Source of the DNA: a virus
Direction: 5' to 3' (one strand)
Length of the DNA stretch: 40,835 nucleotides
IMG/VR virus record: IMGVR_UViG_3300035698_005033
Span: 1-40,835 of that record
Part shown: positions 2,084 to 9,082 of the stretch, piece by piece
Position numbering within the stretch: position 1 is the stretch's first letter
How the letters are laid out: the number at the start of each line of letters is the position of its first letter
Translations under genes and position numbers: made by a program
The notes under the pieces: model-generated
The model's input: only the letters and a program-made list of their open reading frames with translations
Told to the model about the DNA's origin: nothing
Databases searched by the model: none

Positions 2084-2973
2084 ACCCACGCTACTATAAT
2101 TACGACCCCACTTCCAGTTGGACTTTGGAAGTAAATCGTCTTAGTTGTTAAATCTAATCCTCCTTTCTCGTCAAAATTGCCCGCAGGAATAGGAATATAA
2201 TCTACACTACTCCAATCGTTCCCGTGAGTAGCCATACAGTATTTAAGCACAGCCCTATGGGGATTTAGCTTATTGCTTCCCATAGCATAAATCTTAAACC
2301 TCTTTGTATGGTCTGGCAGAAGTTGGGAGTATTCCGTATCAGCAATAGTCAAAGCAACATTGTAAATGTGTATTCCTGTCGCACTTTCTAAAAGGTTAGC
2401 CGTAGCATTCTGTTTGTTCTTGATAAATACCCTGCTCGGACTTCCTCCAATTATCCCTCCTGCTTTTCCTTTTTCTTCCACTCCACCCTTAGCTTCATAT
2501 CCTTTTCCCCGATATGTAAGAATAACAGGCAACGGCTTTTTATAAGTAATCCCGTTCCAAAAAGTTTTCAAATCGCTGATAAAGTCCGCCATCTTCTTTA
2601 TTCCTAAAACCTCTAAAACCTTCGGAAACTTAATGTCGCTTGCCTTAACATTAACAGGCGTAGGATTAACTACTATCTTCGGTTGAGGAATATCCCTTAC
2701 AATAACCTTCGGCTCGGGAACTTTTATTATAGGAGGAGAAACATTTATCTGCGGTTCAATTTTAATCTGCTCTATCGCTTTTATTAATTTCTTCTCATCA
2801 ATAAGAGGTTTGAATAAATCCCTGATAACATCTAATGCCATCATCTTTCTTCCTTTCGCATCTTTTATTTTCTTCACCTCTTTTTTGAAAACCTCAATCT
2901 CTCCCTCGCCAACCCCCGAAGTATTTAAAATATCCTCCAACTGCTTTTCAATTGTTTCTATTTCATTTGGCAT
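2080..2973 (-). CDS. hypothetical virion-associated protein
   Basis: This 297-residue protein has three visible parts. An N-terminal charged, coiled-coil-like region covers about 1-75. A proline-rich linker covers about 75-120 (repeated P-x-[IV] steps such as PPIIKVPEPK and PQPKIVVNPTP). The C-terminal part, about 140-297, is probably beta-rich and ends in a hydrophobic strand (GVVIIVAWV). The start lies 11 bases inside the end of the portal-MuF gene, and the stop overlaps the fibre gene by 4 bases, so all three are likely cotranslated. A structural role such as fibre adaptor or head accessory is inferred only from this position. I do not recognise the family. Confidence 0.7.
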   Translation of the reverse strand: MPNEIETIEKQLEDILNTSGVGEGEIEVFKKEVKKIKDAKGRKMMALDVIRDLFKPLIDEKKLIKAIEQIKIEPQINVSPPIIKVPEPKVIVRDIPQPKIVVNPTPVNVKASDIKFPKVLEVLGIKKMADFISDLKTFWNGITYKKPLPVILTYRGKGYEAKGGVEEKGKAGGIIGGSPSRVFIKNKQNATANLLESATGIHIYNVALTIADTEYSQLLPDHTKRFKIYAMGSNKLNPHRAVLKYCMATHGNDWSSVDYIPIPAGNFDEKGGLDLTTKTIYFQSPTGSGVVIIVAWV

Positions 2974-5900
2974 TTAAAGTGTCCCTTATTTCTACTTTTA
3001 ATTTAGACAACTCCTTCCTTTGTTTCAGCAAGAACTCCTGAGCTTCGTCCATCTCATTCCATTCTGCTGACTTCTTTCTCAAAAGCTTTGAAGCCAAAGA
3101 ATCCCTTTTAATGATAGGATTTCTTGGAGGTTTAAAAACATTAACAGTTTCAAAAGCATCTCTCAAACTTTTAGGCATACCCTCTATTGCGGGTTTATCT
3201 ACCTCCTTATTCATAATCTCAACCCATAACCCCCGACAGTTAGCGTGTATCTGGTCGTTGTGAGTAAATGGGTCGCTTTTTTTGAAAACCCTCCCATCGA
3301 TAGAAAGGCAATAATTACAATTATGCACCAGTATCCCATTTGCAAAATAAGTCCTATCGTTCGCTACCGAAAGATTATAAACTATCGCTTGTTTTACTTG
3401 ACTAATTGTGCTATAATTAAGTTGATGACTAAATACATTTGCAAGTTTTGTAAAAAATCCTTTGTTCCTAAATATCCTTATGATAAATATGGGCGTATTC
3501 CTCAATACTGCTCTCTTAAATGCTTTCATAAAAATAATAGAACAGGAAAATATATTAGATGTAAAACTTGTGGCAAATTGGTATATTCTCCTAAAACAAG
3601 ACCTCGTATATATTGCAGTATGACTTGTCGAGATAAACTGAAACATACCACTAAGATATGTCCGAACTGTAAAAAAGAGTTTCAAGTTCCAATCTCTAAT
3701 GCTGACAGGTATAATTTTTGTAGTAGAAAATGCAAAACTGCTAAAACCATTTACAAAAAATGTCTTCGCTGTGGAAAGATAATTAGACCAAGAGGAAAAA
3801 GAAAAGATATTAAATTTTGCTCTGAAAACTGTCGCCGTCCTCCCGTTTTTTCTATCTGCATTCATTGTGGTAAATCTTTTAGAGTTACTCCTACAGTCTA
3901 TAAATCTCGCAGATTCTGTTCCATATCTTGCTACAGAAAATATCGGGGTGAAACTTCTATTGAAAAGAAAGTTAGAGAAATTTTGGATAAACTCAAAATC
4001 AAATATATTCAAGAAAGAAAAATTGGCAGATATTCTATTGACTTTTTTCTTACAGACTATTGGATTGCTTTGGAAGTTGACGGCTCTTATTGGCATAAAA
4101 ATCCTGAAAAGGACACTCGCAAAAACTCGTATCTTGCTAAACACAATATCAAGGTTATTAGAGTTCCAAAATTGATGATAAAATCTGATGAGATTACAAA
4201 GCAATTTATTCTTTCTGAAATTAACAAACTTATCCCCAATCCTTAAATTCATTGCTATTACCCAACCTTTACCTTTCACCCAAAATGGATGTTCAGCTGT
4301 AACGGTTATTTTTTTTCGCCCAATTTTCAGATCTACCATTTGTCCATCATATCTTCTTTGCATTGCTACCGATACTTTCTCTATTCCCTTATGCGTAAAA
4401 ACCTTATCGCCTACTTTTATATCCTCGATATTCCTATCGCCATCTATAGTGCTAATTTTTGTTCCAGTTGGAAAACAAGTAACCGAGTCTAAAATCTCAC
4501 TTCTCTGTAAGGCATAAATCTCTTTCTCGTAAACATCAAAAGAAGCTCGCCTTCCCTGATTGACAGCACTCCCTATTGTAATTGCAGGCACGTTATATCC
4601 TATCCTTTCCGCCTCCCTCCTGATAGCCGTTATAATCCCTGCTAAAGTTTCCCTCAAAGCTTTCTTCTGTTGCAAAGAAGTCAACAAAGATAGCTTTCCG
4701 CTTTTCATTAAATCGTTTGCCATTATATCTGTCAGGTTATCAGCACTCCTTGTTATATTCCGTAAAGCCTCCCTTGTAGTAGGAGGAACGGCTTTTTTCA
4801 TCTCGTGAGAAGCTATCATCTTCCCATACTCAAACATATCCTTACTTGTATTATAAACTTCCTTCCGATAGTCCTTTTGGTAAGCGACAACAATCTCTTT
4901 TAATGCCTTGCTTTTCTCTGCTCCATCTTTTATCTCTAAAACCCTCTGCATATCGTTTATCAGCCTATCGCTTGAAGATTTCAAAACTCCTGTAATAGAT
5001 TTCCTAAGTTTCTTTTCCGCTACATCCATCTTTGACTGAATGTCTTTGAAGTTAACCTTCTTCTCCGCAAATGTCAGCTCCCTCCAAGTAATGAACTCAC
5101 TCACTTTTCTTTCTGCCATCTTCTCTTTCTCCTCTATCTCCTTTTTCTTCGGAACAGCCTTAGTCTTTTCCTTTTCTTCTTCCTCTGGCTTCTCTGGTAA
5201 GTTCATCAATTCCCTAACCCTATCCTCTAACTTCTCGTCAGGAGTAATTATTCCCTGTTGCGTAAGACTCGACAACGCCTTCGCAATCTTGTCATATTCT
5301 ACTGCTCCAATCTTGGCAAACTTTAATTGAGGATATTCCTCCACCGTATAATTCAAATCTACTAACTGCCGAACAGCATACTTATTTATAATATCACAGC
5401 ATTGCCTTGCGATTGCAGTTAAGTTATTATGGAAAACTGTCGAATGGTCTTGACTTAAAGCTCTCGACCCAGTATTTCCAGAACCCAAATCCAGAAATTG
5501 AGCCAGAACGCTTAAGAGGATTTCCCTATTGTATCTTTTAATTGTCGCTGTCGGATCTTTTAATGTTTTCGCTTTCATATCTGTAAATCCCATTTCCCAG
5601 CCATTTGGAATAATAACATACCCCCATTCGTTAGCCCTAACATTTTTTAAAAGTTCCTCCGCTCTCGCTTTATCCCTATCAGTATGTTTTGTTGGCAACA
5701 CAATATAAGGAATGCCCAATCCCTGACGTTCAAAAGCCATAGCATTTATTTTCTCCGTGTGCTTCTTGTAATACCAAGACCTGTAAGCACTCCTCAAAAC
5801 AGAACTGCCTAACCAGTTATCCCCTTCCTTCCTATGTGTAAATATAATAAGTTTTTCTATCGGTATTGAAATACTCCCTCCATCTTGCAATTGCTGGACT

Positions 5901-6394
5901 ATCCCATCTTTGCCATTCTCCGTTTGCCATTTCGAAATCGACGCTTGCTTTCGAGGAGCAAACTTCCTCCAGCCAATCATTTCCCTTCCGTTAAACTTTA
6001 CAGGCTTGAAAACTTTTTCAAACACGCTAAACCCAAAAGGAAGCATCAGTAATGCTTGCCTTAAAAAGTCGTCCCACGTAATCGACATATACTCAAATAG
6101 ACATTGAGAAATGAACTCTGCTACATCTTTATCTTTTTTCTCCTCTGATATTGGCTCTACATACCACTTAGTTGCCCTAATCGGCAACTCGCAAGCCAGT
6201 AAGGAAGCCTTAATCACGCCATCACTCTTTTTCATCTTGTCGTAAGTAATAATAGCACTCGAACCAGTTAAAGCCGTAACATAATCCTCATCAATAATAT
6301 GACCACCGAAAATTGTAGTGCCCGACTCCCCTAATTCCCTACTTCCAACAGTAGGGGTTTTAAATATCTTTTTGATATTATCAAATATCTTCAT
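2963..6394 (-). CDS. portal-MuF fusion protein interrupted by an intein
   Basis: The 1143-residue precursor joins a Mu gp29-like (DUF935-type) portal, about residues 1-400, through a Glu/Lys-rich linker to a MuF/SPP1 gp7-like head morphogenesis domain, about 430-639 and 1026-1080. An intein occupies residues 640-1025. Removing it joins DSVT to CNYC and restores the MuF signature C-x2-C...DGR...H.NCRG, giving a mature protein of about 757 residues. The portal forms the dodecameric DNA gate; MuF proteins are minor head proteins taken in with it. The gene follows the large terminase, as expected. A promoter-like site at 6419-6446 precedes it. Fusion of the two normally separate genes is uncommon. 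Family calls rest on motifs and order. Confidence 0.88.
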   Translation of the reverse strand: MKIFDNIKKIFKTPTVGSRELGESGTTIFGGHIIDEDYVTALTGSSAIITYDKMKKSDGVIKASLLACELPIRATKWYVEPISEEKKDKDVAEFISQCLFEYMSITWDDFLRQALLMLPFGFSVFEKVFKPVKFNGREMIGWRKFAPRKQASISKWQTENGKDGIVQQLQDGGSISIPIEKLIIFTHRKEGDNWLGSSVLRSAYRSWYYKKHTEKINAMAFERQGLGIPYIVLPTKHTDRDKARAEELLKNVRANEWGYVIIPNGWEMGFTDMKAKTLKDPTATIKRYNREILLSVLAQFLDLGSGNTGSRALSQDHSTVFHNNLTAIARQCCDIINKYAVRQLVDLNYTVEEYPQLKFAKIGAVEYDKIAKALSSLTQQGIITPDEKLEDRVRELMNLPEKPEEEEKEKTKAVPKKKEIEEKEKMAERKVSEFITWRELTFAEKKVNFKDIQSKMDVAEKKLRKSITGVLKSSSDRLINDMQRVLEIKDGAEKSKALKEIVVAYQKDYRKEVYNTSKDMFEYGKMIASHEMKKAVPPTTREALRNITRSADNLTDIMANDLMKSGKLSLLTSLQQKKALRETLAGIITAIRREAERIGYNVPAITIGSAVNQGRRASFDVYEKEIYALQRSEILDSVTCFPTGTKISTIDGDRNIEDIKVGDKVFTHKGIEKVSVAMQRRYDGQMVDLKIGRKKITVTAEHPFWVKGKGWVIAMNLRIGDKFVNFRKNKLLCNLIRFYHQFWNSNNLDIVFSKIRVFASVLFRIFMPIRAVNFQSNPIVCKKKVNRISANFSFLNIFDFEFIQNFSNFLFNRSFTPIFSVARYGTESARFIDCRSNSKRFTTMNADRKNGRTATVFRAKFNIFSFSSWSNYLSTAKTFFVNGFSSFAFSTTKIIPVSIRDWNLKLFFTVRTYLSGMFQFISTSHTAIYTRSCFRRIYQFATSFTSNIFSCSIIFMKAFKRAVLRNTPIFIIRIFRNKGFFTKLANVFSHQLNYSTISQVKQAIVYNLSVANDRTYFANGILVHNCNYCLSIDGRVFKKSDPFTHNDQIHANCRGLWVEIMNKEVDKPAIEGMPKSLRDAFETVNVFKPPRNPIIKRDSLASKLLRKKSAEWNEMDEAQEFLLKQRKELSKLKVEIRDTLNAK
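3389..3417 (+). promoter_or_regulatory. promoter for the antisense endonuclease
   Basis: The plus strand reads TTGTTT, a 17-base spacer, then TATAAT with an extended -10 (TGcTATAAT). The -10 ends 7 bases before the ATG at 3425, so transcription would start at or next to the start codon. It lies inside the coding sequence of intein block F on the other strand, so splicing-domain codons and promoter share the same bases. The call is by consensus match only. Confidence 0.7.
3425..4246 (+). CDS. antisense homing endonuclease, zinc repeats plus Vsr/EDxHD-like nuclease
   Basis: This 273-residue protein is read on the strand opposite the intein. Residues 1-170 hold five tandem C-x2-C ... [FY]CSxxC units, each about 30 residues, that look like treble-clef or zinc-ribbon DNA-binding fingers. 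Residues 172-268 resemble Vsr/DUF559-type nucleases: a helix with TSIEKKV, then RYSIDFFL with the likely catalytic Asp, ALEVDGSYWH, and a final strand IKVIRV. Such EDxHD enzymes are known homing endonucleases associated with split inteins and introns. The ATG at 3425 is chosen because the finger repeats start there and a promoter lies just upstream. There is no clear Shine-Dalgarno, so the mRNA may be leaderless. A homing role is inferred from position and fold. Confidence 0.88.
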   Translation: MTKYICKFCKKSFVPKYPYDKYGRIPQYCSLKCFHKNNRTGKYIRCKTCGKLVYSPKTRPRIYCSMTCRDKLKHTTKICPNCKKEFQVPISNADRYNFCSRKCKTAKTIYKKCLRCGKIIRPRGKRKDIKFCSENCRRPPVFSICIHCGKSFRVTPTVYKSRRFCSISCYRKYRGETSIEKKVREILDKLKIKYIQERKIGRYSIDFFLTDYWIALEVDGSYWHKNPEKDTRKNSYLAKHNIKVIRVPKLMIKSDEITKQFILSEINKLIPNP

Positions 6395-6414
6395 TGTTAA
6401 ATTTCTGACCCTTA

Positions 6415-6636
6415 TTAAATAATAGCTCTTCCAAAACCTTTGTCAAGTCTTAAAGTTCTTTCTGCTCTCATATGACAACTTCTACATAAAGATATTAAGT
6501 TTTCATCTCTATCATCTTTTCCTAATCTCCACGGCTTTTTATGGTGAACATCTAATTTCTTTTTTGCTCCACAATTTTGACAAGTATATCTATCTCTTTT
6601 TACAGCAAGATTGTAAAGTCCCTTAAAATTCAGCTG
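6415..6636 (-). pseudogene. HNH endonuclease fragment without a start codon
   Basis: An open frame of 73 codons follows the terminase stop on the minus strand. It encodes an HNH domain: RYTCQNCGAKKKLDVHHKKP, then NLISLCRSCHMRAE, i.e. two C-x2-C pairs and the HH/N/H core. No ATG, GTG or TTG precedes the domain in frame; the frame opens at a TGA at 6637-6639, and only CTG at 6631-6633 could serve. It overlaps the last bases of the large terminase in another frame. It may be the N-terminally truncated remnant of a homing endonuclease, or an unusual coupled gene. HNH proteins beside terminases also assist packaging in HK97-like phages, so function is not excluded. Confidence 0.6.
6419..6446 (-). 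promoter_or_regulatory. possible promoter upstream of portal-MuF
   Basis: The minus strand reads TTGACA (6441-6446), a 16-base spacer, then TATTAT (6419-6424). It sits in the 3' end of the HNH fragment, about 25 bases before the portal ATG. It would boost portal expression independently of the terminase transcript. Consensus match only. Confidence 0.45.
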
Positions 6637-9082
6637 TCAAAAGCCCAGCTGTCAGAGGCTTTTCCTCCCCTCCCTGATGTTGCTCTATAAAATGAGAAAT
6701 ACTCGAACCTGCAAAAGTAAGCATTAAAGCATCTGCTACATCAGGACTCGGCAAACCTCTTTTCTTCATATCCTTTTTTGACTCTATTAGTATCTGCCCT
6801 TTCTTCTCCGAACTGAACTTGTATTTCATATTCGCTACCTCGTAAAAGTCGTCGTCTTTCGGCAAGTCCGCTTCCTTAATCCAGTCCCTTACTTTCCAGT
6901 AAGCTTCCGCCCTAATGTTATAGAATCTTTCTGTGTCCTCTGCCGTCCCTCCAACAGCAATGCCGTTAACATCATACCTCCCCACAACCGTCCCATTTTT
7001 AGTATACTCCTTTTCGTGCAACCTGTCGACAACCCCAGCCCCAATTCCTATAACATCAACAAAAACATCTTCAGGTTCTATCCCCTCCTCGTCCATTATG
7101 TTTACAGTCCTGCCAACAGTCTGCATTAAATCTTCCTTCGCATAGGTTTCCTTTCTGATAACTTTCTTTCCCTGCCTAACGACAAACGCTATCTTATCAT
7201 CTCCAAATCTTGCAGGGTCAACCCCTAACCTTTTTCTTCCTTCCGCTTCTACTGTCCTGTTAAATGCTCTCTCTACATCGTCAACTGGAATAAGAGTATC
7301 TTTCTCTGACTTCGGAAAATCCCCTTTTACTTTTATCAAATACAGATTACTATTCAATCCATATTTCCTCGCCATTTCCTCAGGATAGCTTGGCGACATC
7401 AATCCCGGAATAATTATCTTGTTGTATCTTACATTCGGAATATCCGTATCTTGAATGTGAATCTTATAAACCCCTTTTGTAGAAAACAACTTAGCAAATG
7501 AACCAGAAGTCCTATAAGGGTTTCCACCCACTAAAAGCTGAGAACCCTCTGAAGCAAGTATTCCGTCTATCGAGCCGAAGATTTCCTCTTTCACTCCCGA
7601 ACCCTCATCAACAACAACTAATGTCCTTCCTGTCTTAGAATGAAATCCCAGCATTCTTTCCGCAACCTCCGAAGCATCGCTCTCCTTTCTTGTAGCCAAT
7701 CCTATCGCATACCAGTTTTCGCTAAGCTCTAAACTTGTCGCCAATAATTTCCCTCCAGTTGCTCTTGGAAAAATACTCTCCATCTTTACATAAGCTCCCC
7801 TCAACTCTCTCCATAAAATTTCTTTGACCTGCGTCCAACTATTTCCGTTCCAATGATACTTGCCATTTCTCCTTACAAGAACAACCCCAGAAGGCACAGT
7901 TACACAATAAACAAACCCTGAATAATCTTTTTGATACCAATGCTTCTTGTATGATTGAACTTCTTTCCCTCTTTTATTCCAAAACCCAATAACATATTTT
8001 GTATGTTTTCCCCAAGAACCTTCAGGACTCCTTGAGTCAAGATTAACAACATATCCAGCCTTGACACATAACTCCTGTAAATCATCTGCTAATCCCTTAG
8101 AACTTGTAAAAAGACGGGTTGACCCATTCTTATCCATATGCCCATCTCCTTTCCAAAAACCATACAAGAACTTTTTAATTGACTCTTTGCTGGATTCTTT
8201 TATCCAAACAGGTATTCTCTTAGTAATCGCCTTACCATATACAACAAATTCCTTTGCCAATTCCTTGTTATAAATCTCCCAGTTACAGATTCCATTTTTA
8301 CCTTTATACTTGTGCCACTTCGGTAACCAGTCTTTGTTTCTTTCGAGCAAATTATCCACATAATCTATGTAATTCTTTTGTGTTAAACAAACCCTATATT
8401 TTCTGCTCTTTGGATTAAATTCAGAATGCCCGTCAGCAAACCAAAATCCATAAAACTCCATCTTGTCTAAGCTTCTCTCTTTTCCTATCCAGTCTGAATC
8501 TCTCTTGAATCTCCAACCCTCTCTATTAAAAATATCCTTCGCTTCTTTAACTTGCCACTTACCCTCGTATCCATTCCTGCCTCCCAATTTCAACTTTGTA
8601 TAACATCTATGATTGGGAGTAACTAAAAAATCAAGTAATTGACTTTTAAATCCAACCATCTTTCCTTTGTAATAGGTTTTTATTATCCTCTCTGGTTTAA
8701 CAAACTCAAGACTCTTGCCTTCTTTCAGCTGAGCTACTTTATCTTTACTGCTTAAATTCTTGAAATACTTCCACCCATTATCCGTTAAAATCTCTGTCTT
8801 TTCGTCGTAACACGGTGCAGTTGTTATAACAATACTGTCGGGATTCCTAAGCAAAAAAAGCAAAGCTATCCTCGCTAAGATAAAACTTTTCCCCGAAGCG
8901 TGGCAACTCCTAATAGCTGTTATTTTATTATGGTCTATTAAAACTGATTTTACTGCCTCTCTTTGTTTAGACCACAATCCATACTTACATCTAAAAAAGA
9001 ACTCAATCGCCTCAATTGGTTTTTTTAGCTTATCTGCTATCCAGTCCTTTGTTTCTTCTTCGTTTTTCATTATCTTCTTCAC
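6623..9082 (-). CDS. terL: terminase large subunit with intein
   Basis: The 819-residue precursor carries an ATPase domain with Walker A SCHASGKS (residues 59-66) and Walker B VVVDE (489-493), a GGNP segment near 519, and an RNase H-like nuclease with acidic residues D622 (GVDPA), D676 (VFVDVIG) and D781/D784 (SPDVADA). The protein translocates and cuts DNA during head filling. An intein at residues 91-414 splits the conserved TAP-S motif between the Walker boxes. The mature protein would be about 495 residues, a normal size. The GTG at 9082 has AAGG a few bases upstream; ATG at 9070 is an alternative start. The gene overlaps the small subunit gene by about 50 bases. Confidence 0.95.
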   Translation of the reverse strand: MKKIMKNEEETKDWIADKLKKPIEAIEFFFRCKYGLWSKQREAVKSVLIDHNKITAIRSCHASGKSFILARIALLFLLRNPDSIVITTAPCYDEKTEILTDNGWKYFKNLSSKDKVAQLKEGKSLEFVKPERIIKTYYKGKMVGFKSQLLDFLVTPNHRCYTKLKLGGRNGYEGKWQVKEAKDIFNREGWRFKRDSDWIGKERSLDKMEFYGFWFADGHSEFNPKSRKYRVCLTQKNYIDYVDNLLERNKDWLPKWHKYKGKNGICNWEIYNKELAKEFVVYGKAITKRIPVWIKESSKESIKKFLYGFWKGDGHMDKNGSTRLFTSSKGLADDLQELCVKAGYVVNLDSRSPEGSWGKHTKYVIGFWNKRGKEVQSYKKHWYQKDYSGFVYCVTVPSGVVLVRRNGKYHWNGNSWTQVKEILWRELRGAYVKMESIFPRATGGKLLATSLELSENWYAIGLATRKESDASEVAERMLGFHSKTGRTLVVVDEGSGVKEEIFGSIDGILASEGSQLLVGGNPYRTSGSFAKLFSTKGVYKIHIQDTDIPNVRYNKIIIPGLMSPSYPEEMARKYGLNSNLYLIKVKGDFPKSEKDTLIPVDDVERAFNRTVEAEGRKRLGVDPARFGDDKIAFVVRQGKKVIRKETYAKEDLMQTVGRTVNIMDEEGIEPEDVFVDVIGIGAGVVDRLHEKEYTKNGTVVGRYDVNGIAVGGTAEDTERFYNIRAEAYWKVRDWIKEADLPKDDDFYEVANMKYKFSSEKKGQILIESKKDMKKRGLPSPDVADALMLTFAGSSISHFIEQHQGGEEKPLTAGLLTAEF
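7841..8812 (-). other. LAGLIDADG intein in the large terminase
   Basis: The 324-residue intein begins at Cys (CYDEKTEILT) after ITTAP and ends HWNGN before Ser+1 (SWTQVKEI). Block B is LVTPNHRCYT. Two LAGLIDADG-type helices are visible, FYGFWFADGH near precursor residues 210-219 and FLYGFWKGDGH near 305-315, so this intein carries its own in-frame endonuclease. The penultimate residue is Gly rather than His, a variant known in other inteins. The insertion point in the TAP motif is a familiar intein site in phage terminases. It contrasts with the neighbouring MuF intein, whose endonuclease is on the other strand. Confidence 0.93.

Follow-up and report, generated by a model that had tools for sequence, protein, structure and literature searches.

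The portal-MuF gene of this virus contains an intein, and the opposite strand of the intein's middle encodes a complete endonuclease gene. The window, meaning the whole stretch of DNA that was analyzed, is the 40,835-nt virus record IMGVR_UViG_3300035698_005033 (36.5% GC). The element is very likely a mobile intein built of two genes that overlap on opposite strands; the nuclease would be made independently and home to intein-less MuF genes. An earlier note had suggested that a complete antisense endonuclease gene separates nuclease expression from extein translation, and the comparative evidence supports this. By function, the element is most likely a mobile intein that lacks the defining in-frame endonuclease. 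The features are as follows.

2963-6394, minus strand: portal-MuF precursor ORF, 1143 aa, open across the entire antisense gene
3317-3319, minus strand: Cys+1 codon; the intein precedes the first Cys of the MuF CxxC motif
3320-4477, minus strand: intein, 386 aa, from Cys1 to His-Asn and followed by Cys+1 (sequence; AF2 and Foldseek matches to inteins)
3320-3394, minus strand: C-terminal half, with splicing blocks F and G; pLDDT about 80-92, conserved in 18 inteins
3395-4183, minus strand: intein linker, which for the most part is the nuclease gene translated from its antisense strand
4184-4477, minus strand: N-terminal half, with splicing blocks A and B; modeled as a Hint fold at pLDDT about 80-94
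3389-3417, plus strand: promoter-like site TTGTTT-17-TATAAT, ending 7 nt before the ATG
3425-4246, plus strand: antisense homing endonuclease gene, 273 aa, ATG 3425 to TAA 4246, codon-aligned with the intein frame
3440-3931, plus strand: five Cys4 fingers (CxxC...CxxxC, from sequence), a putative DNA-binding array
3947-4243, plus strand: Vsr/EDxHD nuclease domain with E180, D206, E217, D219, H224 and D230

The minus-strand ORF at 2963-6394 matches the Portal_Mu profile (E=1.5e-53). With the intein removed, the MuF tail has a weak match to Phage_Mu_F (E=0.0016), which is below the curated cut-off. The host gene had been called MuF; the MuF tail is present, but the gene is a portal-MuF fusion rather than MuF alone. 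The terminase gene (window 6623-9082, minus strand) has an intein of its own with an in-frame LAGLIDADG domain, and a small HNH-like reading frame beside it (window 6400-6620, minus strand) was spotted by eye only.

The intein corresponds to residues Cys640 to Asn1025 of the precursor, with coordinates exactly as the earlier note gave them. Blocks A (CFPTGTKIST), B (TAEHPFW) and F/G (VYNLSV...FANGILVHN followed by C) are all intact, as had been described. The sequence has the features of a class 1 intein, which are Cys1 with block A, TxxH in block B, a C-terminal His-Asn, and Cys, Ser or Thr at +1. It is also inserted in frame into a conserved motif and has intein-less relatives, as expected of an intein. 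Pfam Intein_splicing matches at 1.3e-7 in the window, below the curated cut-off, and the copy in a Salmonella phage is above it. Modeled in full by AF2, the intein has confident regions only at its ends (residues 1 to about 98 and 362-386); linker residues 102-361 (260 aa) have a pLDDT <50 and are predicted to be disordered. The model retrieves intein structures and intein-like domains from the PDB (E=5e-8 to 1e-3), and the best matches of the N-terminal half are the 2lwy intein-like domain (E=5e-8) and the gp41-1 intein (E=9e-7). AF2 and the PDB matches thus recover the Hint fold from the two ends only; therefore, the splicing information seems to lie at the ends and the sense-frame middle is probably filler. 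An intein of this kind is likely to be capable of protein splicing. A split intein with the nuclease between its halves is ruled out in the window by the single 1143-codon ORF, a group I intron was rejected since no intron family matches within 2900-6700 (E up to 1), and a hidden HEG insertion of the ShiLan type is ruled out by the splicing domains and the antisense nuclease.

The nuclease gene sits between the splicing halves: it stops immediately beyond the block A-B half, and 30 nt separate its ATG from the F-G half. The opposite strand encodes a 273-residue protein with five Cys-rich fingers and, by profile, PDB and Foldseek matches, a Vsr/EDxHD-like nuclease, as had been read from the sequence. 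The C-terminal domain matches DUF559 (1.1e-6) and PDB 3r3p, the catalytic domain of I-Bth0305I (3.7e-7). The AF2 model has a pLDDT of 85 and a pTM of 0.46, so the domains are reliable and their arrangement is not. The best PDB match of this model in Foldseek is also 3r3p (E=3.9e-5, TM 0.77 to the target), and the next nuclease matches are NGO0050 and then Vsr. Compared by structure and profile, the protein has a known homing endonuclease fold, that of I-Bth0305I, and it combines the E..D..ExD..WH..D core with the Vsr-like fold of the EDxHD homing endonucleases. Residues E180, D206, E217, D219 and H224 are invariant in 45/45 antisense clusters and D230 in 44/45; the Cys ligands of the last four fingers are invariant in 44-45 of the 45 cluster representatives. 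The nuclease probably cleaves the intein insertion site. The earlier note would have given up its reading if there were no homologues outside antisense MuF inteins and no nuclease fold; there are many outside relatives, and the fold is that of a solved nuclease.

The layout recurs at the same MuF site. Almost no close relatives came up when either the nuclease or the portal-MuF protein was the only query, so alignment-based scans were needed. A mini-intein query retrieved L004/L005/L006, L007 and L003, and the nuclease and intein alignments retrieved L019, L033, L034, L036 and L037/38. The best 80 of 409 relatives found with a seven-sequence nuclease alignment were kept, and 78 sequences (77 loci and the window) were sorted. 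Among these best 80 of 409, the nuclease is antisense to an uninterrupted intein-bearing ORF in 57 loci and the window, which form 45 nuclease clusters at 90% identity. The nested layout, which the earlier note proposed to look for in metagenomic MuF genes, is found in at least 45 nuclease clusters. In 57/57 covered antisense loci, the nuclease gene has matches to the N and C intein profiles on either side of it, on the other strand, and all antisense loci that were sorted are codon-aligned with the intein frame. The insertion precedes the first Cys of the MuF CxxC in 44/44 cluster representatives besides the window, although the insertion-site script left the N-side of L132 unresolved. The GC content of antisense-layout loci ranges from 32 to about 70%. 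Searches of genome contigs gave no relative with the nuclease alignment and mostly unrelated Hint proteins with the intein alignment. L002/L029 were dropped because the match is confined to one finger, and H11 (Microcystis MaeS) and the plasmid matches H91-H93 are ordinary free-standing genes.

The element also occurs in other states. Locus L003 has the same MuF site with no intein, and its DNA is 74% identical to the window across the joined flanks; it appears to be an intein-less relative rather than a proven recent recipient allele. Together with Gordonia phage Spooky, which also lacks the intein, and the decayed copy in L007, it represents the stages expected of a homing cycle. Free-standing relatives in L066, L085, L100, L104, L119 and L128 are located directly 3' of intein-less MuF genes and are convergent with them. 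In the nuclease tree, nested and free-standing states interleave, with at least 4 changes forced by strong branches; for example, free-standing L066 is sister to nested L073 (support 100/96). The position of the window in this tree is not firm, and a single origin of the antisense state is not apparent from it. The interleaved states would fit repeated exchange between adjacent and nested positions, in either direction. Collaborative homing is a precedent for such exchange (PMC2988022).

The free-standing genes also bear on what the nuclease is for. It could mainly serve another role, for example excluding competing phages with an intein-less MuF or spreading only itself, so that intein homing would be incidental. 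This is unlikely. The convergent position directly 3' of intein-less MuF genes suggests that cutting may pay without an intein, but homing explains at least equally well why the nuclease is paired so exactly and recurrently with an intein at one site and why free and nested states are interleaved, and the roles are not exclusive.

A second lineage, at another MuF site, is present in cultured phages. Match H89 pointed to gp5 of Gordonia phage Malisha, which occupies the MuF position and has its intein at a different site (HDN followed by CKC). Its antisense gene encodes a helix-turn-helix (HTH) and a Vsr-like nuclease, which has matches in 127 phage records. In 7 of 8 further records examined from these 127, the nuclease is antisense, codon-aligned, free of forbidden codons and inside an annotated head-position gene (Aaphi23 ORF42, Fosterous gp12, Klebsiella KpTDp1, P. 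aeruginosa BR313c, Salmonella SaI_NFG_5577, Idiomarinaceae 1N2-2 ORF8 and Vibrio H2). The eighth, Acinetobacter IME285, has a free-standing nuclease next to MuF with 12 forbidden codons. Gordonia phage Spooky, on the same host, has a related gp5 that lacks the intein; its identity to Malisha gp5 is 91.7% over the upstream 30% of the query and 67% across the joined junction.

The intein and nuclease frames share codon boundaries; therefore, a stop in the intein frame requires a TTA, CTA or TCA codon in the nuclease gene. These codons encode only Leu (TTA/CTA) and Ser (TCA) and can all be replaced by synonyms, so the codon-aligned register imposes no amino-acid compromise. None of the 273 nuclease codons in the window is TTA, CTA or TCA, though TTA is the commonest Leu codon of the phage. 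The probability that all 12 Leu and 18 Ser codons avoid antisense stops is about 8e-6 under phage codon usage, and the probability of the stop-free antisense frame in L005 is about 4e-5. The remaining two antisense registers have 11 and 28 stops, and the longest open plus-strand stretch across the other genes tested in the window is 127 codons. The 45 intein-flanked antisense clusters have 0 of these codons in 12,864, where the third positions of each gene would predict about 300 in total, a zero that is partly built in since the first sorting demanded an open antisense frame. In 11 free-standing clusters of the same nuclease family there are 47 vs 59.5 expected. When antisense clusters are recognized by intein flanks alone, the sense frame is broken only in L118, so the open sense frame is not absolute.

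It is very unlikely that the endonuclease gene is a dying passenger that recently landed backwards in a mini-intein and that the open sense frame is luck. Free-standing relatives occur, and decay is visible in L007, where the 3' end of the nuclease is kept antisense and an internal deletion preserves the intein frame. Against this, both frames are kept in 45 divergent clusters, the stop-free frames of the window and L005 are improbable by chance, the catalytic residues are invariant, and the nuclease is under purifying selection, clearly in one close pair and less strongly in three divergent pairs. The clean contrast in dN/dS, which does not depend on how the loci were sorted, is from that one close pair, L069 and L080 (89.6% identical DNA), with 0.14 for the nuclease and 1.00 for the sense frame over it. 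The three divergent pairs (66-71% identity) have values of 0.24-0.45 for the nuclease vs 0.81-1.26 for the sense frame. This contrast suggests that the antisense protein is under selection, whereas the sense stretch is kept free of stops but is not conserved.

The opposite reading, in which the sense-strand middle works as an intein domain and codon usage incidentally gives rise to the antisense ORF, is extremely unlikely. Nearly all copies keep the sense frame open, and helices are predicted in it at low confidence. However, its pLDDT is below 50 and the Hint fold comes from the two ends without it; the linker of L069/L080, the one close pair, is kept open yet is unconserved as protein; and positional conservation (0.60/0.64/0.38) tracks the codons of the nuclease, which has a nuclease fold and residues. 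These observations bear out the earlier claim that the middle carries no in-frame endonuclease and that the nuclease is on the opposite strand. An assembly chimera, which had been raised as a concern, can be dismissed as next to impossible, since three metagenome assemblies (L004/L005/L006) contain the portal-MuF ORF of a relative, including intein and antisense gene, without a single difference, and the layout is present in many independent lineages and in isolate phage genomes.

The reading as a mobile intein with an independently made nuclease is also consistent with promoter-like signals. The window has an extended -10 sequence (TGcTATAAT, 3409-3417), and TGnTATAATTARGTTG-ATGAC is common to the window and its relative L005. 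In the window, TGnTATAAT alone is a weak signal given the AT-rich DNA (6 vs 2.5 expected), and a two-hexamer promoter scan of the window region is not above chance. The claim is based instead on a test across lineages. Sigma70 matches upstream of the antisense start are within the best 10% of random 90-nt windows from the same locus in 33/36 clusters (combined Fisher P about 5e-33 across the 36), by a test that used the consensus only and start codons picked by rule. For example, L077/L034, from a 61% GC phage, have TTGACG-17-TATAAT followed by AGGAG and then ATG, and L080 has TTGACT-17-TGnTATAAT upstream of the antisense start. The promoter-like sites fall inside the C-terminal coding part of the intein. 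A Tyr-His in the sense frame of the linker is common to many inteins, and its DNA overlaps the -10 box. The promoter type suggests that the nuclease may be expressed early relative to a presumably late MuF gene.

The element may therefore work as follows, where we infer splicing, cleavage, target site, timing and homing from sequence. Portal-MuF, presumably late as a structural gene, would be made with the 386-aa intein. The two intein ends would form the Hint fold and splice out, and the 260-residue middle would be a tolerated disordered filler. A promoter of the host sigma70 type in the C-terminal coding part of the intein would drive the nuclease independently of portal-MuF. The finger-array EDxHD nuclease would bind an intein-less MuF allele and cut it at the conserved CxxC-coding site, and repair from the intein-bearing copy would move intein and nuclease together. 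It is somewhat more likely than not that such dual-coded inteins are a widespread, undescribed class, each with a transcriptionally autonomous HEG on the opposite strand (sometimes on the same strand in another frame) that has a host-type promoter and is expressed earlier than the host gene. The class would have been rebuilt repeatedly by free MuF-adjacent nucleases that entered mini-inteins at the same target, as a form of collaborative homing among protein-splicing elements.

Related nucleases are found in other layouts. In L111:4386-5834 and L137:4822-5628, the nuclease is inside a MuF intein on the same strand in another reading frame; the intein frame is open across 424 and 269 nuclease codons, respectively, where synonymous permutation averages 26 and 14 stops. 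In L138:4026-6841 and L139:3729-5799, the N-half of the intein is fused in frame to the nuclease and the C-half is in a separate overlapping ORF. L118:3402-6740 has an antisense nuclease between an N-half ORF and a C-half ORF, with a broken sense frame and 14 forbidden codons, and is either a natural split intein or a product of decay. A two-gene split intein layout is possible in L118, L138 and L139. MuF-type proteins in L020:1205-3532 and L044:3575-5587 have the conventional layout, an intein with an in-frame Vsr-like nuclease. In L142:2108-4397 (Mycobacterium phage Camster gp54-57), a related Vsr-like nuclease is antisense between two "DNA methylase" pieces, and gp55 as annotated is the ORF antisense to this nuclease.

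These inteins break the textbook rule that the endonuclease of an intein is part of the intein protein. They are a natural case of a long, fully nested antisense overlap in which one product is apparently selected and the other merely kept open. They account for long stretches of annotated phage minor head proteins that had been unexplained. Such nucleases are hidden by annotation pipelines, which call only the long ORF. The recurrence of the layout in dozens of unrelated phages, cultured ones included, suggests that a class of mobile intein has been overlooked. Homing by an antisense endonuclease is directly testable, since cultured phages carry the layout and Spooky lacks the intein on the same host. 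No published intein with an antisense endonuclease was found in open-access full text, which does not cover the Gosselin et al. 2025 preprint on non-canonical architecture.

Canonical inteins with an in-frame endonuclease, such as PI-SceI and the near relatives L020 and L044, share the Hint fold, Cys1, TxxH, HN and Cys+1 with the window intein, and in both the nuclease coding region is between blocks B and F. In canonical inteins the nuclease is a domain of the intein protein, whereas the window nuclease is encoded on the other strand and has its own promoter-like signals. Dassa et al. 2009 reportedly described split inteins and fractured genes with an EDxHD nuclease in phages. Those systems also tie a Vsr-like EDxHD nuclease to a phage intein, but there the nuclease is between two genes, and in the window it is nested antisense in one uninterrupted ORF. 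The EDxHD endonuclease I-Bth0305I (PDB 3r3p; PMC3943268) has the same catalytic domain fold and residues; however, it belongs to a group I intron, an RNA host, and has other DNA-binding modules in place of five Cys4 fingers. I-DsqI and I-DirI are antisense HEGs in nuclear group I introns (PMC9548176). They too are opposite to the host-gene strand, with a separate transcript where the window has only promoter-like signals, but in an intron the opposite frame need not be translatable, and these are His-Cys box nucleases of eukaryote rDNA. The ShiLan domain is a same-strand, out-of-frame HNH in a phage methylase without splicing domains (PMC11855218). It resembles the window in that a nuclease is hidden in another frame of an uninterrupted host ORF, although the window has a true intein and a nuclease on the opposite strand. 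L111 and L137, with the nuclease on the same strand in another frame within an intein, are intermediate between ShiLan and the window.
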